Shown here one piece after another: positions 46,285-61,847 of a DNA stretch of 64,000 nt. The notes under the pieces were generated by a model. That model saw only the letters and a list, made by a program, of their open reading frames with translations, was not told where the DNA came from and searched no databases. This DNA is from Saprospiraceae bacterium (lineage in GTDB: Bacteria; Bacteroidota; Bacteroidia; Chitinophagales; Saprospiraceae): positions 1 to 64,000 of the forward strand of contig JALHRR010000008.1 in the NCBI GenBank assembly GCA_022841345.1, in the 5' to 3' direction. Position 1 is the first letter of the stretch, and each line of letters opens with the position of its first letter. Made by a program: the position numbers and the translations under genes.

Positions 46285-46335
46285 TTTTGCATTCATTATT
46301 CACACAATTAATCAGTATTCCAAAGGCTTTTGTCC

Positions 46336-47556
46336 ATGAATAGAGTTGTGATCACAGGTTTGGGAATATATTCCTGCATAGGCAGCAATCTGGACGAAGT
46401 CCTTGATTCTTTGTTCAATGGACGTTCCGGAATTATTCTGGATCAGGAAAGGAAGGAATTCGGATTCAGGTCGGGTCTGACCGGTCAGGTGCCAAAACCG
46501 GACATCAAAAATCTGCTCGACCGCAGGGCACGTCTTATGATGCCCGAACAAGCTGAATATGCTTATATGTCCACGCGCGAAGCATTGTTAAATGCAGGAA
46601 TCGATCAGGATTACCTGAATGATCATGAGGTGGGTATTTTATTCGGAAATGACAGTTCGGCCAAACCCATCATAGAAGCCACTGATATCATCCGCGAAAA
46701 AAAAGATACTATGCTGGTAGGTTCCGGCTCTGTGTTCAAAACCATGAATTCGACGGTTAATATGAATTTGGCCACCATTTTCAGATTAAAAGGAATCAAC
46801 TTCAGTGTTAGTGCAGCTTGTGCCAGCGGATCACATGCTATCGGATTGGGATATATGTTTATCCGTAATGGGATGCAGGAAATGGTGATTTGTGGAGGTG
46901 CTCAGGAAATCAATTTATATGCTATGGGCAACTTTGATGCGATTGCCGCTTTTTCTACACGCGAGAATGACCCTACCAGAGCTTCACGACCTTTTGACAG
47001 AGACAGAGACGGACTGGTGCCTAGCGGTGGTGCCGCTACTGTCATTCTTGAAAGTCTGGAATCTGCTCAGAAGAGAGGAGCAAAAATTCTGGGAGAAGTG
47101 GTGGGTTATGGATTCTCCAGCAACGGTGGACATATCAGTAATCCAAGTGTGGATGGACCTATCCGGTCTCTGAGCATTGCGCTCAAAGATGCAGGATACA
47201 GTGCTGCGGAAATTGACTATATCAATGCTCACGCTACATCTACTCCGGCAGGTGATGCAAGTGAAGCGCAAGCTATAGATGCAATCTTTGGAAGCGCTAA
47301 AACTCCTGTGAGCTCTACAAAAGGTATGACAGGACATGAATGCTGGATGGCAGGCGCCAGTGAAATTGTTTATTCCATGCTGATGATGCAAAATGATTTC
47401 ATTGCCCCGAATATTAATTTTGAAAATCCTGATGAAGATTCTGCCCGTCTCCATATTATATCGCAAACTAAAACACAGAAAATCAACACATTCCTATCTA
47501 ATTCCTTTGGTTTTGGAGGTACAAATTCTTCTATCATTGTCAGAAAATGGAAATAA
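46336..47556 (+). CDS. Beta-ketoacyl-ACP synthase (active), cluster KS 1
   Basis: A FabB/FabF-type ketosynthase (406 residues from the ATG at 46336; a TTG two codons earlier is in frame). The catalytic triad is complete: Cys162 (SAACASG), His299 (NAHATST) and His334 (TGHECWMAG), with Lys329 in the KGMTGH motif. The C-terminal NSFGFGGTNSS loop is present. It should condense the growing chain with malonyl-ACP. It lies between the ketoreductase and the first carrier protein. It is one of three ketosynthases here with an intact active site. Confidence 0.9.
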   Translation: MNRVVITGLGIYSCIGSNLDEVLDSLFNGRSGIILDQERKEFGFRSGLTGQVPKPDIKNLLDRRARLMMPEQAEYAYMSTREALLNAGIDQDYLNDHEVGILFGNDSSAKPIIEATDIIREKKDTMLVGSGSVFKTMNSTVNMNLATIFRLKGINFSVSAACASGSHAIGLGYMFIRNGMQEMVICGGAQEINLYAMGNFDAIAAFSTRENDPTRASRPFDRDRDGLVPSGGAATVILESLESAQKRGAKILGEVVGYGFSSNGGHISNPSVDGPIRSLSIALKDAGYSAAEIDYINAHATSTPAGDASEAQAIDAIFGSAKTPVSSTKGMTGHECWMAGASEIVYSMLMMQNDFIAPNINFENPDEDSARLHIISQTKTQKINTFLSNSFGFGGTNSSIIVRKWK

Positions 47557-47684: not shown

Positions 47685-47942
47685 ATGGAAACAGCTGATA
47701 TCATCTCAAAAACTAATGCTTTTCTTGTTGAGGAGTTTGAGGTGGAGCATGAAAAGATACACCCGGCAGCAAATTTAAAAGCTACATTGGAGTTGGACAG
47801 TTTGGACTACATTGATTTGGTAGTTGTCATTGAGAGCAACTTTGGCTTCAAGGTCAAACCGGAAGATTTCCAAAGCATCGTTACATTTCAGGACTTTTAT
47901 GATTATGTAATTGCAAGAGTCAACGAAAAAGAATCGGTATAA
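47685..47942 (+). CDS. Acyl carrier protein 1 of the pigment cluster
   Basis: An 85-residue carrier protein. The phosphopantetheine site is Ser39 in ELDSLDYIDLV, followed by the helix that recognises partner enzymes. The chain is short and acidic, as usual. Its stop codon overlaps the start of the acyltransferase gene by one base (TAATG), so translation is coupled. It probably carries the aromatic starter or growing polyene. Confidence 0.9.
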   Translation: METADIISKTNAFLVEEFEVEHEKIHPAANLKATLELDSLDYIDLVVVIESNFGFKVKPEDFQSIVTFQDFYDYVIARVNEKESV

Positions 47943-48829
47943 TGTCCGAATGGGAAGGAAAATCAAAAGGCAATAAGCTTGGTTACCAGATATTTATATA
48001 TGCAATCAGAAAAGGTGGATTAAAAGTAGCTTATACTCTTTTATATCTGGTTGCACTCAATTTTTTCCTCTTTTCCCGAAAATCTTCCAAAGCCAGTTTT
48101 TATTTTCAGCGTTATAAAATGGGTTTCAGCTGGTGGAGATCCATTAAAAATGTTTACTGGAATTATTACGCGTTCGGTCAAAGTATTATTGACAAAATCG
48201 TCACAATGGCCGGCCTTCCCAACAAATTCAGCTTTGAATTCAATGGAGAACAGTACCTTCTGGACATGGTTGCTGATGCAAAAGGCGGTATTCTTCTGAG
48301 TGCTCACCTTGGAAACTGGGAAATTGCAGGCCATTTATTTACCAGACTTAATACCCGGATCCATATTGTGATGTTTGATGGAGAGCATGCCTGGGTAAAG
48401 CAAATTATGGAAGATGCCACAGGAACCAAAAAAATGAATGTCATCCTGATCAAACCGGATCTCTCGCATATATATGCCATTCAGGCAGCCCTGGACAACA
48501 AAGAACTGGTGTGTATGCATGCAGACCGCTTTCTGCCAGGCAATCCAACCAGAGAGATTTCCTTTTTGAATGAACCAGCTCCATTTCCAATGGGCCCTTT
48601 TCTTTTGAGCAGCACCTTTCAAGTTCCGGTATCTTTTGTATTCGCTTTCAAAACCAGCAATTCGCATTTCAAATTATCCGCTACTCCTCCGAAAATTTAT
48701 GCCAAAAAAAATGAGGGCGGGGTAGAATTAGCCATGAAGGATTTCGTTTCGGTTATGGAAGAGAAAGTAAAACAATATCCACTTCAGTGGTACAATTATT
48801 ACTATTTTTGGTCTAAAGTAGGATCCTAA
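47942..48829 (+). CDS. LpxL/HtrB-like lipid acyltransferase
   Basis: A 295-residue member of the lipid A biosynthesis acyltransferase family with an N-terminal membrane-associated helix (about 25-45). The HX4E active-site motif is present as SAHLGNWEI (about 120-128). Later conserved parts are CMHADRFLPGNPTREISF and FPMGPFLLSSTFQVP. In aryl-polyene clusters, such enzymes are thought to move the pigment acyl chain from its carrier to a lipid. That role is inferred from context, since no lipid A genes are nearby. Confidence 0.85.
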   Translation: MSEWEGKSKGNKLGYQIFIYAIRKGGLKVAYTLLYLVALNFFLFSRKSSKASFYFQRYKMGFSWWRSIKNVYWNYYAFGQSIIDKIVTMAGLPNKFSFEFNGEQYLLDMVADAKGGILLSAHLGNWEIAGHLFTRLNTRIHIVMFDGEHAWVKQIMEDATGTKKMNVILIKPDLSHIYAIQAALDNKELVCMHADRFLPGNPTREISFLNEPAPFPMGPFLLSSTFQVPVSFVFAFKTSNSHFKLSATPPKIYAKKNEGGVELAMKDFVSVMEEKVKQYPLQWYNYYYFWSKVGS

Positions 48830-48841
48830 AATTTCAAGCTT

Positions 48842-49258
48842 TTGATCGAAGAAACAGATATCATAACATATATTCCCCAGCGTTATCCAATGGTAATGTT
48901 GGGCAGTTTGTTATTTGCAGATCAGCAGGAAGTTCGCACACGATTCAATATTAAAGAGGACAATATTTTTGTTGAAAATGGCTGCCTTATGGCTCCGGGC
49001 ATTGTAGAAAACATAGCACAATCAGTAGCTGCAAGAGCAGGATATCTGGCGAGACTTCAAAATGCTGAAGTGCCTACCGGATTTATTGGCGCTGTTCAAA
49101 ACCTTGAAATATTGGAATTGCCCAAAGTTGGCGATGTGATTGAAACAACAGTGGTTCTTGGGCATGAAATCTTCAATGCCACAATTGTAACAGGAACTGT
49201 GCGGCTGAATGAAAAAATTATTGCACATTGCAAAATGAAAATATTTGTAAGCTCATAA
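48842..49258 (+). CDS. ApeP-like dehydratase subunit (hotdog fold)
   Basis: A 138-residue FabZ-related hotdog protein that would dehydrate 3-hydroxyacyl-ACP. The start IPQRYPMVM corresponds to the FabZ LPHRFPF segment. APGIVENIAQSVAARAGY aligns with the FabZ helix carrying the catalytic Glu (Glu56 here). The FabZ segment GHFPG that carries the catalytic His is replaced by ENGCLM, so the His is absent. A partner supplying it is likely (see the protein at 60294). The start is a TTG at 48842, 12 bases after the acyltransferase. Confidence 0.78.
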   Translation: MIEETDIITYIPQRYPMVMLGSLLFADQQEVRTRFNIKEDNIFVENGCLMAPGIVENIAQSVAARAGYLARLQNAEVPTGFIGAVQNLEILELPKVGDVIETTVVLGHEIFNATIVTGTVRLNEKIIAHCKMKIFVSS

Positions 49259-49271
49259 ATTATATCAAACC

Positions 49272-49907
49272 ATGAAAAATTTAATTGCAGTATTCATTTT
49301 TGGAGTCTTTGCTTTCGCAGAGGTTCAGGCACAATCTGTAAAAGATGTCTTCAATAAAGAGAGTAAAATTGTCTTTTTAGGATTGGACTTCACAAAGGTT
49401 AAAATCATAGGTGAACCACTCTCCAAAACAGATGATATAGTAGCGAAGCAGTTTACATTAATCAATCAAAAATTTGTCAACGAGCGCAAAAAATTTGACC
49501 TGAATAAAGTTTTCAATAAGCCTAATCTATCGACTGCGATAGGCATGGTCAACAAAAGAAATGAAGCCATAGACCCGGACCAACTCTTATCAGAAGACTC
49601 CGATGATTATCAGCGTCTGAATAAGAATGATATTGAAACGCTTGTTAAGAATTTTGATTATGACGGTAAAACAGGAACAGGATTATTATTTGTGGTGGAA
49701 GGTTACAATAAGACACTCAAGGAAATCTCCGTATGGGTGACATATATAAATTTGGATACGAAAACTGTGATTCTGACCGAACGTACTACAGGTGCCTTAA
49801 CTTCAGGATTTACTTATGCCAACTACTGGCTATCCGGTTTCAAATCATTAATGGATAAAATTGACAAGAAAGAATTCAAAGCCTGGAAATCAAAATACAA
49901 GGCTTGA
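49272..49907 (+). CDS. Exported protein in pigment cluster, unknown
   Basis: A 211-residue protein with a signal peptide cleaved near VQAQS (residue about 20). The mature part is mixed alpha/beta with no family I recognise. Visible features are FLGLDFTKVKIIGEP early, the acidic PDQLLSEDSDDYQRL in the middle and KEISVWVTYINLDTKTVILTER later. It is in the same orientation, 13 bases after the dehydratase, and so is probably part of the operon. It may act in the envelope on pigment delivery. Not a known catalytic family. Confidence 0.6.
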   Translation: MKNLIAVFIFGVFAFAEVQAQSVKDVFNKESKIVFLGLDFTKVKIIGEPLSKTDDIVAKQFTLINQKFVNERKKFDLNKVFNKPNLSTAIGMVNKRNEAIDPDQLLSEDSDDYQRLNKNDIETLVKNFDYDGKTGTGLLFVVEGYNKTLKEISVWVTYINLDTKTVILTERTTGALTSGFTYANYWLSGFKSLMDKIDKKEFKAWKSKYKA

Positions 49908-49931
49908 TTTATCATTTGGTTAAGACAGCGT

Positions 49932-50357
49932 ATGCAAAAAACATTGAGTGAAGAGGTAGAGGTTTCAGTGAAATTTAGTGAAGTAGATGCGCTGGGAATT
50001 GTGTGGCATGGCCATTATATCCGATATTTTGAAGATGGAAGGGAGGCTTTTGGGAAAAAGTATCAATTAGGATATCTCGATGTTTATGAAAAAGGATTTA
50101 CCACTCCTTTAATTCATATCGATTGTAAGTACAAACGCTCTCTCAAATATGGAGACAAGGCAATTGTACAAATAAAATATTGTCCTTTAAATGTGCCCAA
50201 AATACGGTTTGAATACACCATGATCCATGCAGAAACACGTGAGATCATCTGCACAGGTACTTCAGAACAAGTTTTTTTGGATTCAAAAAATGCAATGCTT
50301 CAGTTGATTGATCCGGTTTTTTATGCTGAATGGAAGGAAAAGTGGAGTATTGTATGA
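49932..50357 (+). CDS. 4HBT-type acyl-ACP/CoA thioesterase
   Basis: A 141-residue hotdog thioesterase of the 4-hydroxybenzoyl-CoA thioesterase type. FSEVDALGIVWHGHYIRYFEDGREAF contains the catalytic Asp (Asp19) and the loop following it. It could release polyene chains or proofread the carrier proteins. The stop overlaps the ATG of the next ketosynthase (ATGA at 50354), which couples translation. Confidence 0.85.
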   Translation: MQKTLSEEVEVSVKFSEVDALGIVWHGHYIRYFEDGREAFGKKYQLGYLDVYEKGFTTPLIHIDCKYKRSLKYGDKAIVQIKYCPLNVPKIRFEYTMIHAETREIICTGTSEQVFLDSKNAMLQLIDPVFYAEWKEKWSIV

Positions 50358-51484
50358 AACGCATCTGTATCCATTCAACAAATGTTTTGTCCGCACTTGG
50401 TAAAACAACTTCGGAGAACTTTGCTTCCGTTTTAAATGGCGATACAGGAATCACCCGGCAGGAAGATGGATCATTTTCCTCCATTATCCCTCCGGAAATT
50501 CTGGATGAAATAGCATTCTCAAATCCATTTACAGCATATTCCCGATTTGAGAAAATGGCCATTCACAGTATCAAAGAAGCATTGCAAGCCTCTGAAATCA
50601 GAATGGACGACCCAAGAACTATCTTTATACTATCTACCACAAAAGGAAATATCGACCTGTTAAAAACAGAGGGAAACGTGTATCCTTCTGATTTATCTCT
50701 TCACGCTACAGCTGAGAAAATTACCCTTTACTTCCAGGCAGAGAACCGGCCACTTGTGGTGAGCACTGCCTGTATCTCAGGCCTTATGGCATTAATAGTC
50801 GGGCAAAGATTAATTAGATCCGGAAAGTACGATCACGCTGTAGTGTGTGGAGTAGACTTAGTGTCGGATTTTGTAACTTCAGGATTCAGATCATTCCTTG
50901 CCCTGAGTGACCGCCAGTGTAAACCATTTGATGCCACCAGGAATGGAATTAATTTGGGTGAGGCTGCTGCAACGGTGATTCTCAGCAACGATAAAAATTT
51001 GACTGAAAATTCAGACAATATAATGCTTGGTGAAGGCGCCTCCAGTAATGACGCTAATCATATTTCAGGACCTTCCAGGACAGGAGAGGAACTTTCTTTG
51101 GCAATCAAAAATGTTCTGCGGAAAAGTAAGATTAAGCCTGAAGAAATCGGATTCATTTCAGCTCACGGAACAGCGACCATTTACAATGATGAGATGGAGG
51201 CCAAAGCTTTTCAGCTTAGTAATATTACCCAATCACCTGTGAATAGTCTCAAAGGCTACTTTGGCCATACGCTCGGGGCTGCCGGCTTGCTGGAAACTAT
51301 TATCAGTGCTGAAGCCCTGAAAAATGACCTGGTCTTGCCTACAATGGGCTGGGAAGTTTCAGGCGTAAGTGTACCCCTGAAACTCAGCCGTGAAGTTACC
51401 TATCAACCTATGCGGCATTTCATTAAGACATCCTCAGGTTTCGGAGGATGCAATGCCGCTATGATATTCAGCAAACAAAATTGA
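50354..51484 (+). CDS. Beta-ketoacyl-ACP synthase (active), cluster KS 2
   Basis: A 376-residue ketosynthase. I chose the ATG at 50354 (MKRICIHS), which overlaps the thioesterase stop. An in-frame ATG at 50330 would add 8 residues. The triad is intact: Cys140 (STACISG), His271 (SAHGTAT) and His305 (FGHTLGAAG). A FabF-like GEAAATVIL segment is present. It differs from KS 1 in having the HTLGAAG form of the second His. The presence of three active enzymes suggests specialisation by chain length or starter. Confidence 0.9.
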   Translation: MKRICIHSTNVLSALGKTTSENFASVLNGDTGITRQEDGSFSSIIPPEILDEIAFSNPFTAYSRFEKMAIHSIKEALQASEIRMDDPRTIFILSTTKGNIDLLKTEGNVYPSDLSLHATAEKITLYFQAENRPLVVSTACISGLMALIVGQRLIRSGKYDHAVVCGVDLVSDFVTSGFRSFLALSDRQCKPFDATRNGINLGEAAATVILSNDKNLTENSDNIMLGEGASSNDANHISGPSRTGEELSLAIKNVLRKSKIKPEEIGFISAHGTATIYNDEMEAKAFQLSNITQSPVNSLKGYFGHTLGAAGLLETIISAEALKNDLVLPTMGWEVSGVSVPLKLSREVTYQPMRHFIKTSSGFGGCNAAMIFSKQN

Positions 51485-51509
51485 CCAAAATTCAATAAAG
51501 ATATACCCC

Positions 51510-52580
51510 ATGAATTTTTTCACCAAAGAAACTAAAACCGCTTTGCAGGCCAAGGAACAGGCATTATGGCTGGCTTTTGCTCCCATTGCATTTCAGGCGA
51601 CTATTGCATTGAGGGATATGGGAATTCTGGATATTGTTTCCAAAAGTGGTTCGGGTGGAATCACTCAACAAGGAATCCAGGAGCAGGTAAAACTTTCCCG
51701 ATATGCAGTAAGAGTGTTACTGGAGGCAGGACTCGGTCTGGAACTCCTGATCATTCAGGATAAAAATTATATTCTGACCAAAACAGGTTATTTCATATTG
51801 CACGATAAATTAACGCGCATCAATATGGACTTTTCACGAGATGTGTGCTACAAAGCCATGACACATCTTCAGGATAGTCTGGTGGATGGCAAACCAAGAG
51901 GCTTAAAGGAATTGGGACCCTGGAGTACAATTTATGAAGGTCTGGCCCATTTGCCTGAGCCTGCCAATACCAGCTGGTTCAATTTTGACCACTACTATTC
52001 AGACCTGGCTTTTCCCGATGTGCTTCCCATCGTTTTCAGCGAGAAACCGAAAAAACTACTGGATATAGGAGGCAATACAGGAAAGTGGTCTATGGTATGT
52101 GCTCAATATGACTCAGAGGTCCATGTGACATTATTGGATTTGGGGATTCAAATCGAACTGGCAGAAAAAAATATAACGGAATCCGGACTGGCAGACAGAG
52201 TTGATTTTTATGTAACCGATATTTTGAATGACGAGTTGCCTTTCCCGGTAGGATTTGACGTCATCTGGATGAGTCAGTTTCTGGATTGTTTTTCAGAAGA
52301 AGAAATCGTCAATATTCTTTTAAAATGCAGAATGGCCCTCAATGAAGGGGGGAGCATTTTCATTTTGGAGCCCTTCTGGGATAAGCAAATGTTCAAGTCC
52401 GCTGCTTTTTGCCTTCAGCAAACTTCTTTATATTTTACGGCCATTGCCAATGGAAACAGCCAAATGTACTTCAGTGAAAATTTCTTTGACCTGATCAAAA
52501 GAGCAGGACTGCAAGTGGTCATGGAAAATAATAAAATTGGCCTGAATTATACATTATTGAAATGTATACCTCTAAATTAA
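51510..52580 (+). CDS. SAM-dependent O-methyltransferase
   Basis: A 356-residue enzyme. An N-terminal winged-helix-like dimerisation domain (about 15-100) is followed by a Rossmann methyltransferase domain with motif I LDIGGNTGKWSM (about 188-199), then VTLLDLGIQI and later MSQFLDCFSEEEIVNIL. It fits the O-methyltransferase family 2. In the pigment it would methylate the aromatic ring hydroxyl or a ring position, which is inferred. It starts 25 bases after KS 2. Confidence 0.85.
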   Translation: MNFFTKETKTALQAKEQALWLAFAPIAFQATIALRDMGILDIVSKSGSGGITQQGIQEQVKLSRYAVRVLLEAGLGLELLIIQDKNYILTKTGYFILHDKLTRINMDFSRDVCYKAMTHLQDSLVDGKPRGLKELGPWSTIYEGLAHLPEPANTSWFNFDHYYSDLAFPDVLPIVFSEKPKKLLDIGGNTGKWSMVCAQYDSEVHVTLLDLGIQIELAEKNITESGLADRVDFYVTDILNDELPFPVGFDVIWMSQFLDCFSEEEIVNILLKCRMALNEGGSIFILEPFWDKQMFKSAAFCLQQTSLYFTAIANGNSQMYFSENFFDLIKRAGLQVVMENNKIGLNYTLLKCIPLN

Positions 52581-52597
52581 CAGCCCAATTACAAACT

Positions 52598-53839
52598 ATG
52601 AAAACAGAAAAAGTAGATGTGCTGGTTATCGGAGCAGGTCCATCAGGCACAGTGGCAGCTTCCATTATCAATCAGGCCGGATATTCGGTTAAAATTGTAG
52701 AAAAGTTAAAATTTCCCCGCTTTGTCATTGGTGAAAGTTTGCTTCCACGCTGCATGGATGCACTGGATGAAGCAGGATTTCTACCGGCTCTGCAGAAATG
52801 GGGATTTCAAAAAAAGTTTGGGGCGAAATTTGTCAAATCAGGATCACTTTGTGATTTTACTTTTGAGGAGCAGCATACTCCCGGATGGAATTGGACCTGG
52901 CAAGTGCAAAGAGCTGATTTTGACAAATTGTTAGCTGACACCGTTGAATCCATGGGAGTACCAGTGCAATACGAATCAACTGTCACCAATATTCAGTTTG
53001 AAGGGGAAAATTCAACAACCACTATTATAGATAAAGACGGCAATGAGTCATACATAGAAGCCAGATTCATTGTAGATGGAAGCGGATATGGACGTGTTAT
53101 TCCAAAACTTTTTGGGCTGGACAAACCCTCAACTATGCAGCCCAGGAAAGCACTTTTTGCTCATATTAAAGATGATAGAAGAACCCAATTTGATGAACCC
53201 AACCGTATCACAGCAATTGTACATAAGCCGGGGATTTGGATATGGGTGATTCCTTTCGCAGATGGAACTACCTCCGTAGGATTTGTCGGTGAACATGCTT
53301 TCTTCTCTTCTTTGAGCGGATCCAATGAAGAACAGTTTCGCACTTTACTGGATGCGGAACCCTATATACAGCAACGATTCAAGGATTCAGAGCTTGTTTT
53401 CGATCCCAAAATCCTGGAATCATGGTCTTCTACAACGGATAAGTTTTATGGCAATGGTTTTGTGTTAACCGGAAATGTGACGGAATTTCTGGACCCCATA
53501 TTTTCTTCCGGTGTTACTTTGGCTACTGTTTCCAGTCAAACCGCTGCTAATCTTGTCATCAAAAAGCTCCGCGGAGAAGAAGTTGACTGGGAAATGGAAT
53601 ATATGGAACCCACTATGCAGGGTGTTAATGTCTTCCGCTCTTATGTAAATGCCTGGTATAGTGGTACATTGGACACTATTTTCTTCAGCAAAAATCCGGA
53701 TACTCAAATCAAAAATCAGATTTGTTCTGTTCTGGCCGGATATGTTTGGGATCAATCCAATCCTTACGTCAAAAACCATCACAATGGACTGGAAAGATTA
53801 GCAAGATTTATTGAATTTTCTGAAAAGTCAAACCAATAA
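52598..53839 (+). CDS. FAD-dependent halogenase-like oxidoreductase
   Basis: A 413-residue flavoenzyme. The FAD motif GAGPSG is at 12-17, GESLLP at 45-50 and the WxWxIP signature of flavin-dependent halogenases at 214-219 (WIWVIP). A Lys at 77 in AKFV aligns with the region of the catalytic Lys of tryptophan halogenases. The GESLLP segment is also shared with geranylgeranyl-reductase-type flavoproteins, so either oxidation or halogenation is possible. The start is the ATG at 52598 (MKTEKVDVLV); an ATG at 52562 overlaps the methyltransferase. Flexirubins can carry chlorine, which fits. Confidence 0.78.
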   Translation: MKTEKVDVLVIGAGPSGTVAASIINQAGYSVKIVEKLKFPRFVIGESLLPRCMDALDEAGFLPALQKWGFQKKFGAKFVKSGSLCDFTFEEQHTPGWNWTWQVQRADFDKLLADTVESMGVPVQYESTVTNIQFEGENSTTTIIDKDGNESYIEARFIVDGSGYGRVIPKLFGLDKPSTMQPRKALFAHIKDDRRTQFDEPNRITAIVHKPGIWIWVIPFADGTTSVGFVGEHAFFSSLSGSNEEQFRTLLDAEPYIQQRFKDSELVFDPKILESWSSTTDKFYGNGFVLTGNVTEFLDPIFSSGVTLATVSSQTAANLVIKKLRGEEVDWEMEYMEPTMQGVNVFRSYVNAWYSGTLDTIFFSKNPDTQIKNQICSVLAGYVWDQSNPYVKNHHNGLERLARFIEFSEKSNQ

Positions 53840-53842
53840 TCT

Positions 53843-54448
53843 TTGAGTCTTTATATTACATCTGCAGTCATCATACGAAATCAAACAGTCCGAAAGAACG
53901 GGTCTGTAGCATTTCAATCCTCTGAAACAAACGTACATTTATTTTTGAGAGCAATCTATGATTATCTTGAAGTTTCTTATACCAGGTTTCATAAGATGGA
54001 TGCATTGAATAAACTGGGCTGGGCTGCAGCAGAATTTCTTCTTCAGGAAATAGAATCAGGCTTTGTGGATAAAGAATCAGCAGGTATTGTTCTGGCAAAT
54101 AAAAGTTCCAGTTTGGATACTGATGAGCGGTTTCTCGAAAGTACAAAATCAGTGGCCAGTCCGGCATTGTTTGTTTATACCTTGCCAAATATCGTTTTGG
54201 GTGAAATATGTATCAGACATGGTCTGAAAGGTGAGAATACTTTTTTTGTCACTCCTAATTTCGACATTACATTTATGCATGACTACACTGAACAATTATT
54301 TGAATCAGAAGCAGTAAATGCATGTATAATTGGCTGGGCCGAACAATATCACGAACAATATGAGGCAGCTTTTTATTTAGTTCAAAAGAGTTCAATGGGA
54401 CTTCAGGAACCATTTACCATCAAAGCATTAGAAAAATTATATGAATAA
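53843..54448 (+). CDS. Ketosynthase-like protein lacking the catalytic Cys
   Basis: A 201-residue relative of the N-terminal half of ketosynthases. FHKMDALNKLGWAAAEFLL and VGEICIRHGLKGENTFF-type segments (YTLPNIVLGEICIRHGL) align with the KS dimer region. Where KS enzymes have a Cys, this protein reads TPNFD, so it cannot condense chains itself. It starts at TTG 53843, 3 bases after the flavoenzyme. Probably a partner or chain-length-factor-like subunit for a cluster ketosynthase. Length is about half of a full ketosynthase. Confidence 0.75.
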   Translation: MSLYITSAVIIRNQTVRKNGSVAFQSSETNVHLFLRAIYDYLEVSYTRFHKMDALNKLGWAAAEFLLQEIESGFVDKESAGIVLANKSSSLDTDERFLESTKSVASPALFVYTLPNIVLGEICIRHGLKGENTFFVTPNFDITFMHDYTEQLFESEAVNACIIGWAEQYHEQYEAAFYLVQKSSMGLQEPFTIKALEKLYE

Positions 54449-54716
54449 TAACATGGACAATTTAATGGCGGAGCTAAAAGCTCAGATCATAGAACAATTA
54501 AATTTACAGGAAGTACAACCCGGAGACATTGATAATGATCAGCCTTTGTTCAGGGAAGGACTGGGATTGGATTCCATTGATGCTTTGGAATTGATCGTTT
54601 TATTGCAGCAACATTACAATATCAAACTGAGCAATCCTGCTGATGGTCCTGAAGTATTCTATTCTGTGCGTTCACTTGCAGAATTTATCACAGCAGAAAG
54701 GGAAAAAGCAGGATGA
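54441..54716 (+). CDS. Acyl carrier protein 2 of the pigment cluster
   Basis: A 91-residue carrier protein with the phosphopantetheine Ser45 in GLGLDSIDALEL. It overlaps the preceding gene by 8 bases and the third ketosynthase by 4 (ATGA at 54713). Different from carrier protein 1 in its recognition helix, which suggests separate partners for starter and extension steps (inference). Confidence 0.9.
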   Translation: MNNNMDNLMAELKAQIIEQLNLQEVQPGDIDNDQPLFREGLGLDSIDALELIVLLQQHYNIKLSNPADGPEVFYSVRSLAEFITAEREKAG

Positions 54717-55909
54717 GTTCAGGCGTATGGATAGCAGGCGGTGGGGTGATAAGTGGCATTGGGATGAATTTATCGGAATGCATCACAGCATTCGAAAAAA
54801 TGCAGCCTGGAATGCAAGAGATGAAATACCTGGAATCCATACACCGCAAAACATACCCTGTTGCCGAGGTGAAAGCAGGAAATGATTTACTCGCTTCCAT
54901 CGCTGCAGAATCTATCTACTGGAGTCGAACAGCATTACTGAGCAAGATTGCTGCCAAAGAAGCATGGCAAAATTCTGGTTTAAGTGAAATTTCAGCATAC
55001 AAAGTCGGATTCGTTTCTGCCTCAACAGTGGGAGGTATGGATAGGACTGAGTACTTCATGGAGGAATATCTTCATGATAATTCCAGGGGCAGACTTCGAA
55101 ATGCCATTTATCACGATTGTGGAAGCATTACTGATCTGGTCGCAGAATCGCTGGGAATAGAGGACTTTATATCGACCATTTCTACAGCTTGTTCCTCAGG
55201 GGCTAATGCCTTGATGTATGCATCCAGGTTAATTCAAAGTAAGATGTTGGATGTGGTCATTGCAGGAGGTGCCGATTCATTGACAAGATTTACATTGAAT
55301 GGGTTCAATGCTCTTATGATTCTGGACCAGGAACCCTGTAAACCCTTTGATGAAAACAGGAAGGGATTGAATCTGGGCGAAGGGGCTGCTTATCTGGTAT
55401 TAGTTTCTGACAGACTCGCTGAAAAACTACAACCCTGGTGCAGACTGAGCGGATTTGCAAATGCGAATGATGCTTTCCACCAGACCGCTTCCTCACCGGA
55501 AGGTATAGGTAATTTTATGGCAATGAAGAGAGCGCTGGAAAAAGCAGGCATAAAACCGGAAGATATTGATTACATCAATCTGCACGGTACCGGTACAGCA
55601 AATAATGATAGTTCAGAAGCGCAGGCAATCCTGAATTTATTTGGCAACACTCCACCACCGCTCAGCTCCACCAAGAGCTTTACCGGACATACCCTGGCAG
55701 CCAGTGGGGCACTGGAGGCAGTCTTTTCCGCATATGCCATAAAGGAAGGTATTATTTTCCCCAATGCCCATTTCGCGACTCCGATGAGTAATTTCGCAAT
55801 TTCACCGGTCACCAGTTTTCTGAAAGGAAAAAATCTGGAGCATGTGATGTCCAATTCATTTGGTTTTGGTGGCAATTGCTCGAGTTTGATTTTTTCGAAG
55901 GATTATTGA
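54713..55909 (+). CDS. Beta-ketoacyl-ACP synthase (active), cluster KS 3
   Basis: A 398-residue ketosynthase with a complete triad: Cys160 (STACSSGANAL), His291 (NLHGTGTAN) and His326 (TGHTLAASG). Its ATG overlaps the stop of carrier protein 2, so the pair is tightly coupled and likely cooperates. The ending SNSFGFGGNCSSLIF is the normal C-terminal loop. It is the last intact gene before the Rpn-family insertion. Confidence 0.92.
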   Translation: MSSGVWIAGGGVISGIGMNLSECITAFEKMQPGMQEMKYLESIHRKTYPVAEVKAGNDLLASIAAESIYWSRTALLSKIAAKEAWQNSGLSEISAYKVGFVSASTVGGMDRTEYFMEEYLHDNSRGRLRNAIYHDCGSITDLVAESLGIEDFISTISTACSSGANALMYASRLIQSKMLDVVIAGGADSLTRFTLNGFNALMILDQEPCKPFDENRKGLNLGEGAAYLVLVSDRLAEKLQPWCRLSGFANANDAFHQTASSPEGIGNFMAMKRALEKAGIKPEDIDYINLHGTGTANNDSSEAQAILNLFGNTPPPLSSTKSFTGHTLAASGALEAVFSAYAIKEGIIFPNAHFATPMSNFAISPVTSFLKGKNLEHVMSNSFGFGGNCSSLIFSKDY

Positions 55910-55929
55910 TTTTTAACTATTTTCGTCTG

Positions 55930-56868
55930 ATGTCAGATGAAGTACATAATATTCACGATGCCTTTAGCAAGGAAGTGTTCTCTAACCCTGATAGAGCTAT
56001 TGCCTTTTTTGAGCAATTCTTGCCTCCTTCTCTTTTAAAAGCTATTGATCTGTCTACTCTCAAAGTTTCCAAAGAATCTTACATCCCAAAGTCGCTGAAA
56101 GAGTATTTTTCTGATTTAGTTTTTACAGTGAATCTGAAAAAGGAATCAAAAGCAGTTACCCAACTCGCTTTGCTTTTCGAGCATAAATCTGAACCAGACA
56201 AAAATGTTTTGTTGCAAGTCGGACATTACATGTTCTCTCATTGGATGACTTGTATCCGGAAGAAAAAACCGGCTTACCCTATCATTCCCATTATCTATTA
56301 TCAGGGAAGTAAAAGATGGGAAATACCCGGCATCAAAACTCTGTTTGCAGCATATCCGGACACTATAAAACACTATCTTCCTGATATCCCAAATATCTTT
56401 CTTCCCTTGAAAGATATTCCTGAGGAAAAGATATTAGAAATCCGGGATGCCATAATGGTAACTGCTATTTTGGCCCAAAGAAGTAAAATCCATCCAATCG
56501 AACTGGCTGAAGAGTTTTTGCAGATTTTATCGCTGTTTCCGCATGATGCAGGAGACAGAAACTTTTTCGAAACGCTCATTGTTTACACCTATAGTGTATC
56601 AAATATCGCGGATGATCAAATGACAGAAGTGCTTCAGCAATTACCACAACCTATCAAACACAAAGTGATGACAACCTACGAAATGATTAAAAACAAAGGC
56701 AAGCAAGAAGGCAAAATTGAGGGCAAATTAGAAGGCAAAATAGAAGGCAAAATAGAAGTTATTATTCATTCTTTTAAAAATGGGTATCCTATCCCTGAAA
56801 TAGCAAAAATCACGAATATGTCCATTGAGGAAGTTCAAATAATTCTCAAGGACAATGGGCTTATCTGA
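55930..56868 (+). CDS. Rpn-family recombination-promoting nuclease/transposase
   Basis: A 312-residue protein of the Rpn (RpnA-like, PD-(D/E)XK-type) family, started at the ATG at 55930 (MSDEVHNIHDAF); an ATG at 55876 overlaps KS 3. The conserved front HDAFSKEVFSNPDRAIAFFEQFLP is followed by LLFEHKSEPDKN and YPIIPIIYYQG, the family core. The C-terminus carries a repeated EGK motif and a helical tail (SFKNGYPIPEIAKIT). Such genes promote recombination. This one lies inside the pigment cluster and interrupts its gene order. Confidence 0.88.
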   Translation: MSDEVHNIHDAFSKEVFSNPDRAIAFFEQFLPPSLLKAIDLSTLKVSKESYIPKSLKEYFSDLVFTVNLKKESKAVTQLALLFEHKSEPDKNVLLQVGHYMFSHWMTCIRKKKPAYPIIPIIYYQGSKRWEIPGIKTLFAAYPDTIKHYLPDIPNIFLPLKDIPEEKILEIRDAIMVTAILAQRSKIHPIELAEEFLQILSLFPHDAGDRNFFETLIVYTYSVSNIADDQMTEVLQQLPQPIKHKVMTTYEMIKNKGKQEGKIEGKLEGKIEGKIEVIIHSFKNGYPIPEIAKITNMSIEEVQIILKDNGLI

Positions 56869-56899
56869 TTTGATATAAGTCCTGGTTAAAAGCCGTAGC

Positions 56900-57100
56900 A
56901 TGACAACCAATGAAATGATTATAAATAAGGGAAAAAAAGAAGGGTTTATAGAAGGTATTGAAGAAGGTAAAATTGAAGCCAAAGTAAAAGTTATTATGCA
57001 TTCCTTTCAATTTGGCTTACCTGTCGAAATGATTTCCAGAATCACCTGCATGTCAACCAAAGAAGTCCGGAGAATTCTCGCAGAAAAAGGATTGCTTTAA
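56900..57100 (+). pseudogene. Orphan C-terminal module of an Rpn gene
   Basis: A 66-codon open frame (MTTNEMIINKGKKEGFIEG...) whose product aligns without a gap with the last 66 residues of the Rpn protein just upstream (56668-56868, also 201 bases). By eye about 60% of residues are identical. It is either the remnant of a second tandem Rpn gene or a free-standing duplicated module. The sequence stays in frame with its own ATG. Confidence 0.72.
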
Positions 57101-57112
57101 GTTTGTACAAAC
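57101..57112. repeat. 12-base perfect palindrome
   Basis: GTTTGTACAAAC begins directly after the stop of the Rpn remnant. It could be an element end, a protein-binding site or chance. Confidence 0.45.
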
Positions 57113-57254
57113 AATACCTCTTACCTTGATATTCAATTCAATTATCATTGTATTTAAATTTTTCCATGTCAATTTTTTAAAAGGATTATTAAGTTCAGTT
57201 ATATCAATGCTTACCTTGTGTCCTAATCAGATTTTTCAAGCATAATCATCAAGT

Positions 57255-58295
57255 GTGTACATACAAGGCATAGGCATCATTTCTCCCTGGTCGGGTCAAG
57301 GCTCTGAGCCATTGATTAAAGAGGATCATTTTGCCATCATAGATCCGGATTACAGCCAATGGATAGACTTGCAGCAAATTCGCCGAATGAGCAGGGTCAT
57401 TAAAATGGGAGTAGCAGCCGCCCATATGAGCCTTTCAGAAGCAAATATTGAAGCTCCGGATGCTATCATAACCGGAACCGCATACGGATGCATGGCAGAT
57501 ACCGGAATATTTTTACAAAAAATGGTGACACAAAAAGAAGAAATGTTGGCCCCTACAGCCTTCATTCAAAGTACACATAATACTCTTGGAGGACAAATTG
57601 CACTCAAACTAAATTGCCACGGTTATAATAACACTTTTGTCCACGGTAACACTTCTTTTGAGAGCGCCTTACTGGATACACAATTTTATCTGGCAGAAAA
57701 TCCCCATTCCAAAGTGCTCACGGGAAGTGCCGATGAAATCACTACTATCAGTCACAACATTCTTACAAGATTAAGAAGGTATAAAAAAAATTCTGTCAAT
57801 CCTTCTGAACTCCTGAACACAGCGACTATCGGCAGTATGGGTGGTGAAGGAACTGCTTTTTTCGTTTTTCAAGCTTTGAAAGACAACCGCTCCATTGCCA
57901 AATTATCCGGTATGGAAATGATTTTTCGCAAGCTTACACCTGAAGAAAGTCTTAACCCAATCCTGGAATTTCTGAAGAAAAATGACATTTTACCTGCAGA
58001 ACTGAGCCTTCTTATAACAGGCAAAAATGGAGATATCAGGGATGATTATCAATATGATCTGGCAGAAAATTCGATATTTCAAAATGTTCCTAAAGCTGCT
58101 TTTAAACATCTTTGCGGAGAGTATCCAACTTCTATTGCATTCGGTATGGGCATTGCTTCGAGAGCGATACAAACAGGAAAACTACCCTCAGAGATGTTGT
58201 ATTCAGGCCAGCCCCCAAAAGCATTAAACAACATTCTGATCTGGAATGCACATACCAATATGAGACATTCTTTGATACTCCTGCAAAAATGTTGA
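57255..58295 (+). CDS. Ketosynthase-like protein lacking the catalytic Cys, second
   Basis: A 346-residue ketosynthase homologue, started at GTG 57255. The KS nucleophile position reads GNTSF, with Thr133 where Cys should be, and no HGTAT-type first histidine motif is found (ITGKNGD instead). The segment KHLCGEYPTSIAFGMG takes the place of the second His region. The protein is therefore a non-catalytic, chain-length-factor-like subunit. It overlaps the deacetylase gene by 7 bases. A heterodimer with one of the active ketosynthases is likely. Confidence 0.8.
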   Translation: MYIQGIGIISPWSGQGSEPLIKEDHFAIIDPDYSQWIDLQQIRRMSRVIKMGVAAAHMSLSEANIEAPDAIITGTAYGCMADTGIFLQKMVTQKEEMLAPTAFIQSTHNTLGGQIALKLNCHGYNNTFVHGNTSFESALLDTQFYLAENPHSKVLTGSADEITTISHNILTRLRRYKKNSVNPSELLNTATIGSMGGEGTAFFVFQALKDNRSIAKLSGMEMIFRKLTPEESLNPILEFLKKNDILPAELSLLITGKNGDIRDDYQYDLAENSIFQNVPKAAFKHLCGEYPTSIAFGMGIASRAIQTGKLPSEMLYSGQPPKALNNILIWNAHTNMRHSLILLQKC

Positions 58296-59068
58296 AGCAT
58301 TCTCTTATATGGAAATTTTGTTTGCTTGCCGGCGGTATCTTGCTCGCTATACGGTTATGGGTTATGCCTGAATTCCCTTTGCTGATCGTTTTACTACCTT
58401 TAATTTTATACCTGGTTTTAGCTGCATGGGGTTCGATCCGCGTTAAATCCAACTTTTACACTCCTGTAATATGTAAAGGTCCGGAAAACCAAAAATCTGT
58501 AGCGCTCACTTTTGATGATGGTCCATCAGGAATTAACACTCTTGAAGTACTTGAAATACTTCAACAGCACAAAATAAAAGCTGCATTTTTTTGCATTGGT
58601 AAGCATGTGGATGAGCATCCTGAAATTTTACAAAAACTACATGAGCAGGGACATCTGATAGGAAATCACAGCTATTCCCATCATCCGCTTTTTGACTTAT
58701 TTACTTCTAAAAAAGTATTTAAGGACTTAATATTGGCCAATGCAAGTATTGAAAAAGTAATTCGCAAAAAACCATTGCTTTTCAGACCTCCGTATGGAGT
58801 GACCAATCCTATGCTTTCAGCCGCTTTGCAAGAACTTAAACTGATTTCCATTGGTTGGAGTATAAGATCTTTCGATACTGTCTTAGCCGATAAGGAAAAA
58901 TTGCTAAAAAGGGTTACCCGCAAAGTTAAGTCAGGAGACATATTTCTGTTTCATGACAAATGTAAAGTGACTGTTCAAATTTTACCTGCACTGATCGAGT
59001 ACCTTATTGCTGAAGGATTCGTCATTGAGAGGGTCGATGATCTGTTAAACATTACCGCTTATGCTTAA
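58289..59068 (+). CDS. Polysaccharide deacetylase (NodB family)
   Basis: A 259-residue enzyme with two N-terminal membrane helices (about 8-24 and 30-47) and a NodB deacetylase domain. The metal-site motifs are TFDDGPS (about 70-76) and HSYSHH, with RPPYGV further on and a late FLFHD motif. It would hydrolyse N- or O-acetyl groups on a glycan or glycolipid on the outside of the inner membrane. Its job in the pigment pathway is unclear. I chose ATG 58289, which overlaps the preceding stop. Confidence 0.85.
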   Translation: MLKHSLIWKFCLLAGGILLAIRLWVMPEFPLLIVLLPLILYLVLAAWGSIRVKSNFYTPVICKGPENQKSVALTFDDGPSGINTLEVLEILQQHKIKAAFFCIGKHVDEHPEILQKLHEQGHLIGNHSYSHHPLFDLFTSKKVFKDLILANASIEKVIRKKPLLFRPPYGVTNPMLSAALQELKLISIGWSIRSFDTVLADKEKLLKRVTRKVKSGDIFLFHDKCKVTVQILPALIEYLIAEGFVIERVDDLLNITAYA

Positions 59069-59690
59069 TCTGAAAATATTTCTGTTCCTGCTGTTCTCCC
59101 TTCAACTTTCAGCACAATCTGATTTCAAGCCATTGAAGAACGAAGCTGATTTTACAAAGAGATTCACAGAGGCTTCTGCCAAAATCAATACTATTAAAAG
59201 TGACTTTATTCAGGAAAAGCATCTCAGTATGCTCGAAGAAAAAATAGTAAGCAAAGGAATTTTCTGGTTCAAAAAAGAACAGAAAGTGCGAATGGAATAT
59301 TTGAGTCCAACCAAATACCTGATCGTGATGAATGATAAAACATTCAGGATCAAAGACGCATCAGGAGACAAGAAAATGGCCACCGGAGGCAATAAATTAT
59401 TTCAGCAAATCTCTCAAATCACAGCCGATTGCATCAGAGGAAATGTGCTGAATAACAAAGACTTTGAAACAGAAATTATGGAAAATTCAAAGCAGTACAA
59501 GATAGAAATGAAACCTCTTTCGAAACAAATGAAAACTTATTTCAGCAGCATTCATTTGATGATCAACAAATCTGACCTCGACGTCGCAAGTATCATTATG
59601 AATGAACCTTCAGGTGATTTCACCAAACTCAGTTTTCAGAATAAGCTATTAAACTCTACCCTATCTGATGAAGTATTTTCTGTTAAGTAG
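59061..59690 (+). CDS. LolA-like outer-membrane lipoprotein carrier
   Basis: A 209-residue periplasmic carrier with signal peptide (cleaved near LSAQS, residue about 19). The segments KINTIKSDFIQEKHLSMLEEKIVSKGIFWFKK and YLSPTKYLIVMNDKTFRI are typical of the LolA fold, a half-barrel that binds acyl chains. LolA-type proteins are regular members of aryl-polyene clusters, and this one may carry the pigment or its lipid to the outer membrane. It overlaps the deacetylase and lipoprotein genes. Confidence 0.82.
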   Translation: MLNLKIFLFLLFSLQLSAQSDFKPLKNEADFTKRFTEASAKINTIKSDFIQEKHLSMLEEKIVSKGIFWFKKEQKVRMEYLSPTKYLIVMNDKTFRIKDASGDKKMATGGNKLFQQISQITADCIRGNVLNNKDFETEIMENSKQYKIEMKPLSKQMKTYFSSIHLMINKSDLDVASIIMNEPSGDFTKLSFQNKLLNSTLSDEVFSVK

Positions 59691-60294
59691 TTTGGTCCTG
59701 CTCACATGCTGCCTTCCTGCATGCAAATCGGCTTATTCAGCATTGGAAAAGTCAGATCCTGCTCAATCCTGCGCTTTGAAAGTCAAACCACTTATCCACG
59801 AAACTATCAAATACAGCACTCAGGTAAATGCCCTTAAATATGAATTTTCAGGAATTCTCCTGTTCAAGCCTATGGCAGACAGCAGTCTGCGCATTGTATT
59901 TACCAATCAATTCGGCATCAAGTTTTTTGATTTTGGATTCGATAAAAATGGGAATTTTGAAAAGCATTATGTTTTACCTCAGATGGATAAGGACGCTGTG
60001 GTCAATCTATTGAGAAAAGACTTTGAAATGCTGCTGATGATGTATGATCCTGACCAGGCTGAAGTTTTGACGGATGGCACCCAAACTTTCACCACCTTTG
60101 CATTGAAAAAAGGAAAGGTATATTACGTTACTTCTCCGGATTGCAGCAATATCATCCGGATTGAAAATGGGTCAAAGAGAAAACCAGTGATTCAGATTTT
60201 CTTATCCGGAGAACAAAATGAAATGCCGGAATCATTTTTGATCGAGCACAAAAATGTGTCATTTACTATTCATTCAAAACGCCTGAATTCATAA
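59668..60294 (+). CDS. Lipoprotein in pigment cluster, unknown
   Basis: A 208-residue lipoprotein with lipobox CCLPAC (Cys19). The mature part contains VNALKYEFSGILLFKPMADSSLRIVFTNQFGIKFFDFGF, similar in style to LolB-like/DUF3261 lipoproteins of aryl-polyene clusters. I cannot assign it firmly. It overlaps the LolA-like gene (23 bases) and abuts the dehydratase gene, so it is translated in the same operon. It may accept cargo from the LolA-like protein. Confidence 0.65.
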   Translation: MKYFLLSSLVLLTCCLPACKSAYSALEKSDPAQSCALKVKPLIHETIKYSTQVNALKYEFSGILLFKPMADSSLRIVFTNQFGIKFFDFGFDKNGNFEKHYVLPQMDKDAVVNLLRKDFEMLLMMYDPDQAEVLTDGTQTFTTFALKKGKVYYVTSPDCSNIIRIENGSKRKPVIQIFLSGEQNEMPESFLIEHKNVSFTIHSKRLNS

Positions 60295-60656
60295 TGCTGG
60301 AAGGAGATTTTTATAAGATTATTAAGCAAATTCAAAATGAAAATGGTAAGACAGGATTCAGCATTCTTTTTAATGCAGACCACAAAATTTTTGAAGGCCA
60401 CTTCCCTGGCAAACCAATCGTGCCCGGCGTATGCATGATGCAGATTATTCAGGAATTACTTGAAAAAACAATCGGTAGGAGTCTGCTGATTAGAAAAGCC
60501 TCCAATATCAAATTTCTTCATATCATCGACCCAACAATTCACCTACAGGTCAATGTGAATATTGACTATCAAATTGATAATGGAAATGTGAAAACTTCTG
60601 CCAATATTGCAGATGAATCACTTACTTTCATGAAATTTGCAGGAGAATTCAGCTGA
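60294..60656 (+). CDS. ApeI-like dehydratase subunit (FabZ-related)
   Basis: A 120-residue hotdog protein of the FabZ/ApeI type. It keeps the catalytic His segment GHFPGKPIVPGV (His36), but the position of the catalytic Glu, 14 residues later as in FabZ (His54/Glu68), is Gln50 (VCMMQ). It therefore has one half of the active pair. The dehydratase at 48842 has the other half. Its start overlaps the lipoprotein's stop by one base. Predicted to dehydrate polyene intermediates with a partner. Confidence 0.8.
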   Translation: MLEGDFYKIIKQIQNENGKTGFSILFNADHKIFEGHFPGKPIVPGVCMMQIIQELLEKTIGRSLLIRKASNIKFLHIIDPTIHLQVNVNIDYQIDNGNVKTSANIADESLTFMKFAGEFS

Positions 60657-60668
60657 TTTATTCTTATA

Positions 60669-61847
60669 ATGAATACAGAGCAATCATATCATAGCGTATG
60701 CTTATTGGTTCCTACATACAACAATGCAGGCACCCTCGCTAATGTTCTGAACGGAGCGCTGGCTTATATGAATAATATTATAGTCGTGAATGATGGTTCA
60801 ACTGATAACACAGAAGAAATTTTAAAAAAATTCCCAATTGTAAAAGTGTTAAGCTATTCTCCCAATCAGGGAAAAGGAATAGCTCTAAGGAAAGGATTCA
60901 AATTTGCCGCAGAACAGGGATTTGATTTTGTGATCACGATGGATTCAGATGGACAGCATTTTCCTGATGATATACCTGTGTTTTTGGAAAAAATGAATGA
61001 GGACCCCAATTCCCTTTACATTGGAGCCCGTAATCTGCACCAGGAAAATATGCCAGGCAAAAGCACATTTGCCAATAAGTTTTCCAACTTTTGGTATTAT
61101 GTAGAAACCGGACAAAAACTTCCTGATACCCAATCAGGATTCCGCCTCTATCCTTTACATCTTCTGAAAAACATGCGCTTTTTCAGCACTAAATATGAGT
61201 TTGAAATCGAAGTAATGGTCAGAGCTGCCTGGAAAGGAATTTCTGTGCTGCCTGTGCCCATCAAAGTATATTACTTTCCCGAAGAAACAAGAGTCAGTCA
61301 TTTCAGACCATTCAAGGATTTCTCCAGGATCACTGTACTGAATACAGTGCTTGTGTTCACTGCATTGTTGTACATCTATCCCAGAAATTTTTTGCGATTC
61401 ATATTTACAAAGGGGAATCTGCGCCGGGCTATTAAAAAACATCTTTTCAATAAAATGGAAAGTGCCCGACTCAAAGCTTTTTCTATCGGATTCGGAGTAT
61501 TTATGGGGATCGTGCCCATCTGGGGGTTTCAAATGATAGTCGCCATTCCCGCAGCATTGCTGATGAGACTTAATCCTGCTCTGGTGACGGTAGCTGCAAA
61601 TATCAGTATTCCTCCCATTCTTCCAATGATCATTTTTCTCAGCTTCTTTATGGGAAGACTATGGGTTCAGGAAGATGCAACCTGGTTGATTTTCCAAAAA
61701 GGTATCACACTGGAAGATGTGCAGCTCAATCTGTTTCAATACATCGCGGGAAGCGTTACACTGGCTATTACAGCAGGATGTTTGGCAGGCCTGATTTCTT
61801 ATTTTACAGTCTTATATTTGCGCAAGAGTAAACAGGAATCAGTCTGA
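60669..61847 (+). CDS. GT2 glycosyltransferase fused to DUF2062
   Basis: A 392-residue protein. The N-terminal half is a family 2 glycosyltransferase (about 8-230) with VPTYNNAGTLANVL, VVNDGSTDN and the catalytic TMDSDGQHFP. The C-terminal part is a DUF2062 membrane domain (about 265-390: SARLKAFSIGFGVFMGIVPIWGFQ, then helices). It may use a polyprenyl-phosphate sugar, or in aryl-polyene clusters modify the lipid-linked pigment. Starts 12 bases after the dehydratase. Confidence 0.82.
   Translation: MNTEQSYHSVCLLVPTYNNAGTLANVLNGALAYMNNIIVVNDGSTDNTEEILKKFPIVKVLSYSPNQGKGIALRKGFKFAAEQGFDFVITMDSDGQHFPDDIPVFLEKMNEDPNSLYIGARNLHQENMPGKSTFANKFSNFWYYVETGQKLPDTQSGFRLYPLHLLKNMRFFSTKYEFEIEVMVRAAWKGISVLPVPIKVYYFPEETRVSHFRPFKDFSRITVLNTVLVFTALLYIYPRNFLRFIFTKGNLRRAIKKHLFNKMESARLKAFSIGFGVFMGIVPIWGFQMIVAIPAALLMRLNPALVTVAANISIPPILPMIIFLSFFMGRLWVQEDATWLIFQKGITLEDVQLNLFQYIAGSVTLAITAGCLAGLISYFTVLYLRKSKQESV

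Follow-up and report, generated by a model that had tools for sequence, protein, structure and literature searches.

Flexirubins are orange pigments that form a chemotaxonomic class of the Bacteroidota. Dehydratases of the FabZ type are dimers in which each active site uses the histidine of one protomer and an acid of the other, and in the FabZ homodimer both residues are carried by each chain. Two proteins encoded in the flxA-flxY cluster of Chitinophaga pinensis, FlxF and FlxS, have both been named as flexirubin dehydratases (PMC3992019). In the excerpted text of that report the dehydratase is proposed without a heterodimer or missing residues, and the starter enzymes FlxA and FlxY are the only flexirubin enzymes that are biochemically characterised there. 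Here we analyse a cluster of the same type from a Saprospiraceae bacterium, which lies in positions 1 to 64,000 of contig JALHRR010000008.1 (assembly GCA_022841345.1); this stretch of 64,000 nucleotides is referred to as the window. Its FlxF and FlxS are very probably the two subunits of one heterodimeric 3-hydroxyacyl-acyl carrier protein (ACP) dehydratase of the flexirubin polyene synthase.

The closest described system is the ApeI:ApeP pair, two FabZ-like hot-dog proteins encoded within the aryl-polyene cluster, a related type that makes yellow pigment, of which one subunit has the histidine and its partner keeps the glutamate without the histidine of the GHFPG motif. A 2021 paper describes ApeI and ApeP of A. 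baumannii as heterodimeric with a single active site, an ApeH-ApeI fusion being co-expressed with ApeP (PMC8041823), and the structure in PDB entry 6QSR carries the title 'The Dehydratase Heterocomplex ApeI:P from Xenorhabdus doucetiae'. With ApeI:ApeP already solved, the heterodimer principle itself is not new. In the ape cluster of E. coli most deletions of core genes remove the pigment, and the excerpted text of that study does not name apeI or apeP among the mutants that keep it (PMC8253772). The mycobacterial HadAB and HadBC enzymes are likewise heterodimeric hot-dog dehydratases of a type II system, in which a common subunit has alternative partners; HadB is the catalytic subunit, while HadA and HadC are substrate-binding and do not have the hydratase 2 motif (PMC5902629). 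A search of the open PMC library found no publication on a flexirubin dehydratase heterodimer.

The catalytic pair is divided between FlxF and FlxS

Both open reading frames (ORFs) of the original prediction, which had proposed a heterodimer with a single composite site, are present in the window (Table 1). That of FlxF starts with TTG and encodes 138 residues; as predicted it keeps Glu56, within APGIVENIAQ, and the GHFPG loop with its histidine is gone. Gln60 is also present, and by sequence the distance between the conserved Phe and the Glu is 4 residues shorter than in the FabZ domain encoded in the same genome. The ORF of FlxS starts with ATG and encodes 120 residues, with His36 in GHFPG and, again as predicted, a glutamine at position 50, 14 residues further on. 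FlxS is matched by Pfam FabA at 27.2 bits (cut-off 23), and both proteins score below the curated FabZ cut-offs of NF000582 (113 bits; FlxF 22.9, FlxS 28) and TIGR01750 (155 bits; FlxF 20.6, FlxS 30.3). As a control, the FabZ domain of the same genome, which sits at the end of a 491-residue frame that we take, from its length and from family knowledge, to be an LpxC-FabZ fusion, has an acid at the FabZ place and keeps both His and Glu. Both residues are also present in 12/12 third dehydratases found near flx clusters.

Two sets of sequences were used to follow these residues through the family. Set 1 comes from 296 genomes of the phylum, searched whole, in 25 of which 43 FlxF and 25 FlxS were found; set 2 consists of 58 FlxF and 70 FlxS from 80 named loci, the best 80 among 577 relatives located by way of FlxO. 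Being anchored on FlxO, the loci of set 2 are flx-like clusters by construction, and the two sets are not independently sampled. The pooled counts combine both sets with seven further sequences of each protein from additional loci and count identical sequences once, taking 107 FlxS rows to 100 and 108 FlxF rows to 106. To be counted, matches had to reach 1e-30, or 1e-15 in the second set, which excludes, among others, the broken FlxS of locus L143 and 12 third dehydratases (L019 plus 11 loci). Metagenome-assembled genomes assigned to Neomarinimicrobiota and to Bacteroidetes have near-identical FlxF, and a genome assigned to Beijerinckiaceae has one flx locus (L117, L128 and L095); these assignments are probably binning errors.

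Glu56, Ala59 and Gln60 are each invariant in FlxF (106/106 distinct sequences), while in FlxS His36 is present in 100/100 and Gln50 in 97/100. Set 1 alone has Glu56 and Gln60 in 43/43 FlxF and His36 and Gln50 in 25/25 FlxS; the corresponding figures for set 2 are 58/58 for Glu56, 70/70 for His36 and 67/70 for Gln50. The exceptions at position 50 are Leu (L095), Glu (L136) and Arg (L090); of all rows counted, His and Glu are combined in the FlxS of L136 alone. No conserved histidine substitutes for the lost one in FlxF, where every alignment column of the 106 sequences has at most 30% His. A histidine at the FabZ spacing of 14 before the Glu is seen in 0/106. In 15/106 the shortened loop does contain a histidine, which precedes the Glu by 6 to 11 residues (two of these sequences reading GHF or GHL), and His108 and His129 of the window FlxF are unconserved (13/106 and 1/106). 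The complementary loss of the histidine in FlxF and of the acid in FlxS is thus fixed in the sampled family, a point that the original prediction had referred to a family alignment.

A FlxS-FlxF dimer would have one complete site, to which FlxS supplies His36 and FlxF supplies Glu56 and Gln60, and one dead site, where FlxF without its histidine lies opposite Gln50 of FlxS. After each round of ketosynthase and ketoreductase, the composite site would dehydrate the β-hydroxyacyl-ACP to give one double bond; the 3-hydroxyacyl substrate would be provided by the FlxB-like ketoreductase. This heterodimer with its composite site is well supported by the sequences and their conservation, by co-occurrence and synteny, by homology to ApeI and ApeP and by the predicted folds; that the two proteins pair physically, form a single composite site and carry out this reaction is what we infer from these.

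In each family the retained residues rank with the best conserved, a pattern unlike that of decay. A reading of FlxF and FlxS as decay relics was rejected on this ground, and on that of strong matches in 25/25 flx genomes.

In FlxS, Glu54, which is one turn away from position 50, is well conserved (95/100, with Asp in 2 more). The Glu of FabZ is at +14 and its Gln at +18; in FlxS the two residues are exchanged (Gln50 and Glu54), and Glu54 could be a shifted acid. It might then be supposed that FlxS acts alone as a homodimer with this relocated acid, FlxF being a helper or a relic. Glu54 would, however, need to work from one helical turn further along, and 3/100 FlxS have no acid at either 50 or 54 (L021 with QQ, L108 with QA and L095 with LR), while the FlxF of all three loci keep Glu56. 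Nor does invariance of Glu56, Ala59 and Gln60 in FlxF resemble a relic, and we regard a FlxS homodimer of this kind as very unlikely.

The predicted folds map onto the two chains of ApeI:ApeP

The proposed FlxS-FlxF heterodimer resembles ApeI:ApeP in the division of residues between a His subunit, FlxS, and a Glu subunit, FlxF, both of them predicted to have the hot-dog fold. To compare the two systems, ApeI and ApeP of E. coli CFT073 and relatives on five plasmids (one with ApeI only) were set against flx loci; the E-values for homology refer to a limited collection of reading frames, taken from 16 loci. The FlxF profile matches 5/5 ApeP (E 6e-14 to 7e-5) and the FlxS profile 6/6 ApeI (E 7e-15 to 4e-8), two of these at the end of proteins of more than 550 residues. 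With E. coli ApeI as the query, phmmer finds 7/7 intact FlxS (E 4e-10 to 2e-4), and in hhalign the FlxF profile reaches 97.6% against one ApeP, the FlxS profile 97.8% against one ApeI. In a tblastn search of a plasmid collection with ApeI, the FlxS of the flx-plasmid of Aureispira anguillae is also matched (E 6e-5, the weakest of 22 records). This plasmid, pAUEa (L153), is 122 kb long and its flx cluster has both FlxF and FlxS.

The AlphaFold2 models have a mean predicted local distance difference test (pLDDT) score of 94.6 for FlxF (43 sequences) and 95.5 for FlxS (66 sequences). The place of the His loop is taken in the FlxF model by short strands (44-45 and 48-49), which lie within a block with a mean pLDDT of 98. 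By Z the best match of the FlxF model is chain B of 6QSR, ApeP (Z 20.7, root-mean-square deviation 1.9, 136 residues aligned), which is also first in Foldseek; that of the FlxS model is chain A, ApeI (Z 15.8, root-mean-square deviation 2.0, 111 residues aligned). As modelled, FlxF and FlxS therefore each map onto a different chain of the same solved heterodimer, with 14-15% identity in the structural alignments. The ApeI/ApeP precedent named in the original prediction is supported in this respect, both by profile homology to each partner and by the rank of the 6QSR chains by Z.

Neither protein is recognised by the curated Pfam models of the ApeI-like and ApeP-like families. The cut-off of the ApeI-like family PF22818 (28.5 bits) is not reached by FlxS of the window (14.6 bits) or of C. 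pinensis YS-16 (14 bits), and for the ApeP-like family PF22817 (cut-off 27 bits) neither the window FlxF nor that of L068, the locus recorded as C. pinensis strain YS-16 and included in the sample, has a Pfam match at E≤1. FlxS and FlxF are consequently left outside the ApeI-like and ApeP-like families.

The two systems also differ in the residues themselves. The sampled ApeI have the histidine in 6/6 and an Asp at +14 in 6/6, whereas FlxS has Gln at this position; the sampled ApeP have the Glu in 5/5 and GHFPG in none, with a histidine 9 to 11 residues before the Glu in 2/5 (L149 and L152). FabA likewise has Asp at the acid position. Since ApeI retains this Asp, an ApeI homodimer has on paper a FabA-like His/Asp pair and could in principle work, while a FlxS homodimer, with Gln at +14, could not work by that route. 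Judged from the sequences, what is new in the flexirubin pair is that it is more completely split than ApeI/ApeP. A further likeness is the glycosyltransferase gene that follows the His subunit in both E. coli CFT073 and the window. On the Enterobacter asburiae plasmid of L148 the listed ape genes end after LolA, with IS26 nearby, and ApeP was not found in the stretch.

The difference from HadAB lies in the catalytic pair, which in FlxS/FlxF is itself divided between the subunits; the HadAB arrangement, with the pair in one subunit, is not seen in either protein, although the HadB-type motif was not searched for.

FlxF and FlxS occur together

Strong matches, taken as E≤1e-150 for FlxA, E<1e-42 for FlxF and E<1e-34 for FlxS, are found for all three proteins in the same 25/296 genomes, the identity of the genome sets having been checked, and strong FlxF or FlxS matches occur in 0/271 genomes outside these. 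The next-best matches have E 2.8e-12 for FlxF and 1.5e-9 for FlxS, and many of the weaker ones that follow are in frames of at least 460 residues, as in LpxC-FabZ fusions. Both proteins are present even where the genes are dispersed: in G017 they are on separate contigs, and in G269 a distance of 19 kb separates them, with FlxA about 0.7 Mb away. FlxF immediately precedes FlxS in L139 and L140, where both genes share one strand and the gaps are 3 and 26 bases. Both genes are found in 53 of the 80 loci of set 2, FlxF only in 5, FlxS only in 17 and neither in 5, some of these loci ending at contig edges; a search of the whole genome for 12 of the 27 incomplete loci found FlxF in 11/12 and FlxS in 12/12 (one broken). 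No FlxF-FlxS fusion protein was noticed among the matches listed, though no search was aimed at fusions. Together with the fixed complementary loss and the matches to the 6QSR chains, the shared distribution over 25/296 genomes and the adjacency in two genomes lend support to the heterodimer that was originally suggested.

One or both proteins might be hot-dog enzymes of another reaction, for instance a polyene double-bond isomerase or a decarboxylase, with dehydration taking place elsewhere. AmcE of cispentacin biosynthesis, which had been assigned as a dehydratase, is a decarboxylase with a FabA/FabZ-like histidine (PMC10698177), and in 12 cases FlxO has, at a distance of 7 to 10 kb, a third dehydratase in which both His and Glu are intact. 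Examples are L019:3558-4022, beside a ketosynthase and a ketoreductase, and L083:20221-20676. This third enzyme is, however, found in just 11/80 loci plus L019, and in the genome of the window the FabA family model finds only FlxS and LpxC-FabZ. The pathway requires repeated dehydration, moreover, and it is for that step that FlxF and FlxS were proposed (PMC3992019); a different reaction seems highly improbable.

Hybrid dehydratases, in which FlxF or FlxS would pair with the housekeeping FabZ in the manner suggested by PDB 9a6k (titled as an integrative model of YCSD-FABZ, the partner resembling FlxF in fold), are exceedingly unlikely, as the only PF07977 domain found besides FlxS in the genome of the window is the end of the 491-residue frame, and as strong FlxF and FlxS matches are confined to genomes with both, while the matches at E≤0.001 with either profile that are seen in 265/296 genomes are mostly weak and FabZ-like.

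Besides Glu54, a number of results weigh against the pairing of FlxF with FlxS as an ApeI:ApeP-like enzyme. With E. coli ApeP as the query phmmer finds just 2/7 FlxF (E 9e-5 and 4e-4). The lead of 6QSR chain B over the next match of the FlxF model, a FabZ (Z 19.7), is 1.0 Z, and for FlxS chain A is tied with 3esi (Z 15.3, ApeI-like) and an anammox FabZ (Z 15.1). Foldseek places an E. coli FabZ chain first for FlxS and 6QSR chain A at rank 25, mostly after FabZ chains, and by sequence profile chain B is sixth for FlxF, after FabZ chains (best 4e-10 vs 4e-7), and chain A third for FlxS, behind other chains. No FlxF was found in G305, one of the 12 further genomes searched, and FlxS is split over three frames, with the FlxF frame open, in the complete genome G296 (Chitinophaga sp. 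E66, to which L072 and L143 belong); the split could be either a true loss or a sequencing error. A mirror-tree comparison of six genes over 51 loci, which speaks neither for nor against pairing, does not single the pair out: FlxF and FlxS have a raw r of 0.68 and a partial r of 0.16; higher partial r values are seen for FlxS-FlxN (0.34), FlxS-FlxM (0.39), FlxF-FlxO (0.36) and FlxO-FlxN (0.64).

Tandem copies of FlxF

The window has a single FlxF. In 18/25 genomes of set 1, on the other hand, two neighbouring FlxF accompany one FlxS, a further difference from ApeI:ApeP. These genomes belong to families coded f4 and f5, which we guess to be Weeksellaceae and Flavobacteriaceae, and the tandem genes are in loci L015, L016, L017, L020, L022 to L026, L028, L029, L031, L034 and L052 to L056. 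All 18 second copies fall in the tree into a clade with support of 100/100 and a long stem (length 2.13). The grouping of the 18 first copies is weaker (97/59), with the adjoining long branch of L021 unsurely placed. Both copies keep Glu56 and have lost GHFPG. The residue that follows the catalytic Glu is His in 16/18 first copies and Asn in the others, while in the second copies it is Asn.

The presence of two FlxF for each FlxS suggests that these are interchangeable acid halves. Such sharing of a His subunit between two partners would resemble mycobacterial HadAB and HadBC (PMC5902629). As a tentative proposal, the completely split dehydratase may in f4 and f5 exist as two alternative composite enzymes, with one FlxS common to FlxF1 and FlxF2. 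If this is true, swapping of the Glu half would serve, for example, early versus late rounds of chain growth or different double-bond geometry.

The flexirubin cluster of the window

The window holds a flexirubin gene cluster, in which FlxA scores above its curated cut-off and is accompanied by ketosynthase, ACP, ketoreductase and LolA genes in flx order (Table 1). FlxA is followed by genes for a ketoreductase, a ketosynthase, an ACP, an acyltransferase, FlxF, a thioesterase, a ketosynthase, a methyltransferase and a flavin adenine dinucleotide enzyme, and then for an ACP, a ketosynthase, a chain-length-factor-like protein, a deacetylase, LolA, FlxS and a glycosyltransferase. This order agrees with that of the flxA-flxY cluster of C. 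pinensis (PMC3992019). The names FlxF and FlxS are given by gene order and homology, while the letters of the remaining genes are taken from the order in the text of that report and are partly a matter of interpretation.

Table 1. Genes of the flexirubin cluster in the window (KS, ketosynthase).
Feature	Position	Strand	Basis
FlxA, flexirubin tyrosine ammonia-lyase, cluster marker	43967..45535	+	NCBIfam NF053541, 808.6 bits vs cut-off 700
FlxB-like ketoreductase, FabG type	45556..46284	+	Pfam adh_short_C2 / adh_short
FlxC-like ketosynthase	46330..47556	+	NCBIfam FabB/FabF-type synthase matches, under cut-offs
FlxD-like acyl carrier protein	47685..47942	+	Pfam PP-binding
FlxE-like acyltransferase, immediately 5' of FlxF	47942..48829	+	Pfam Lip_A_acyltrans
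FlxF-like acid half-dehydratase, predicted hot-dog fold	48842..49258	+	ORF, family residues, AlphaFold2 model
FlxH-like thioesterase, 4HBT family	49932..50357	+	Pfam 4HBT_2
FlxI-like ketosynthase	50330..51484	+	NCBIfam KS matches, under cut-offs
FlxM-like acyl carrier protein	54441..54716	+	Pfam PP-binding
FlxN-like ketosynthase	54713..55909	+	NCBIfam KS matches, under cut-offs
FlxO-like chain-length-factor-type KS homologue	57255..58295	+	Pfam Ketoacyl-synt_2, 36 bits vs cut-off 25
LolA-like carrier, close to FlxS as in other flx clusters	59061..59690	+	Pfam LolA; synteny
FlxS-like His half-dehydratase, predicted hot-dog fold	60294..60656	+	ORF, Pfam FabA, family residues, AlphaFold2 model
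FlxT-like glycosyltransferase, immediately 3' of FlxS	60669..61847	+	Pfam Glycos_transf_2 and DUF2062

Two genes of the Rpn family (PD-(D/E)XK 'transposase') are associated with the cluster, one at 42923-43782, just upstream of FlxA and across two overlapping frames, and the other at 55876-56868, between FlxN and FlxO. The FlxL-like protein encoded at 53843-54448 (201 residues) has no Pfam or NCBIfam match. The Aureispira gene at the FlxL position is annotated as a KS N-terminal-like protein, and the window protein could be a chain length factor of half size, as ApeC is.

Implications

Taking FlxF and FlxS as one enzyme would correct the view of two redundant dehydratases, and would be consistent with FlxF having no Pfam family match. 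The Flx pair would then be a clean natural case of one active site whose parts are encoded by two genes. With one FlxS and two FlxF in many clusters, the swapping of subunits in a dehydratase becomes testable genetically.

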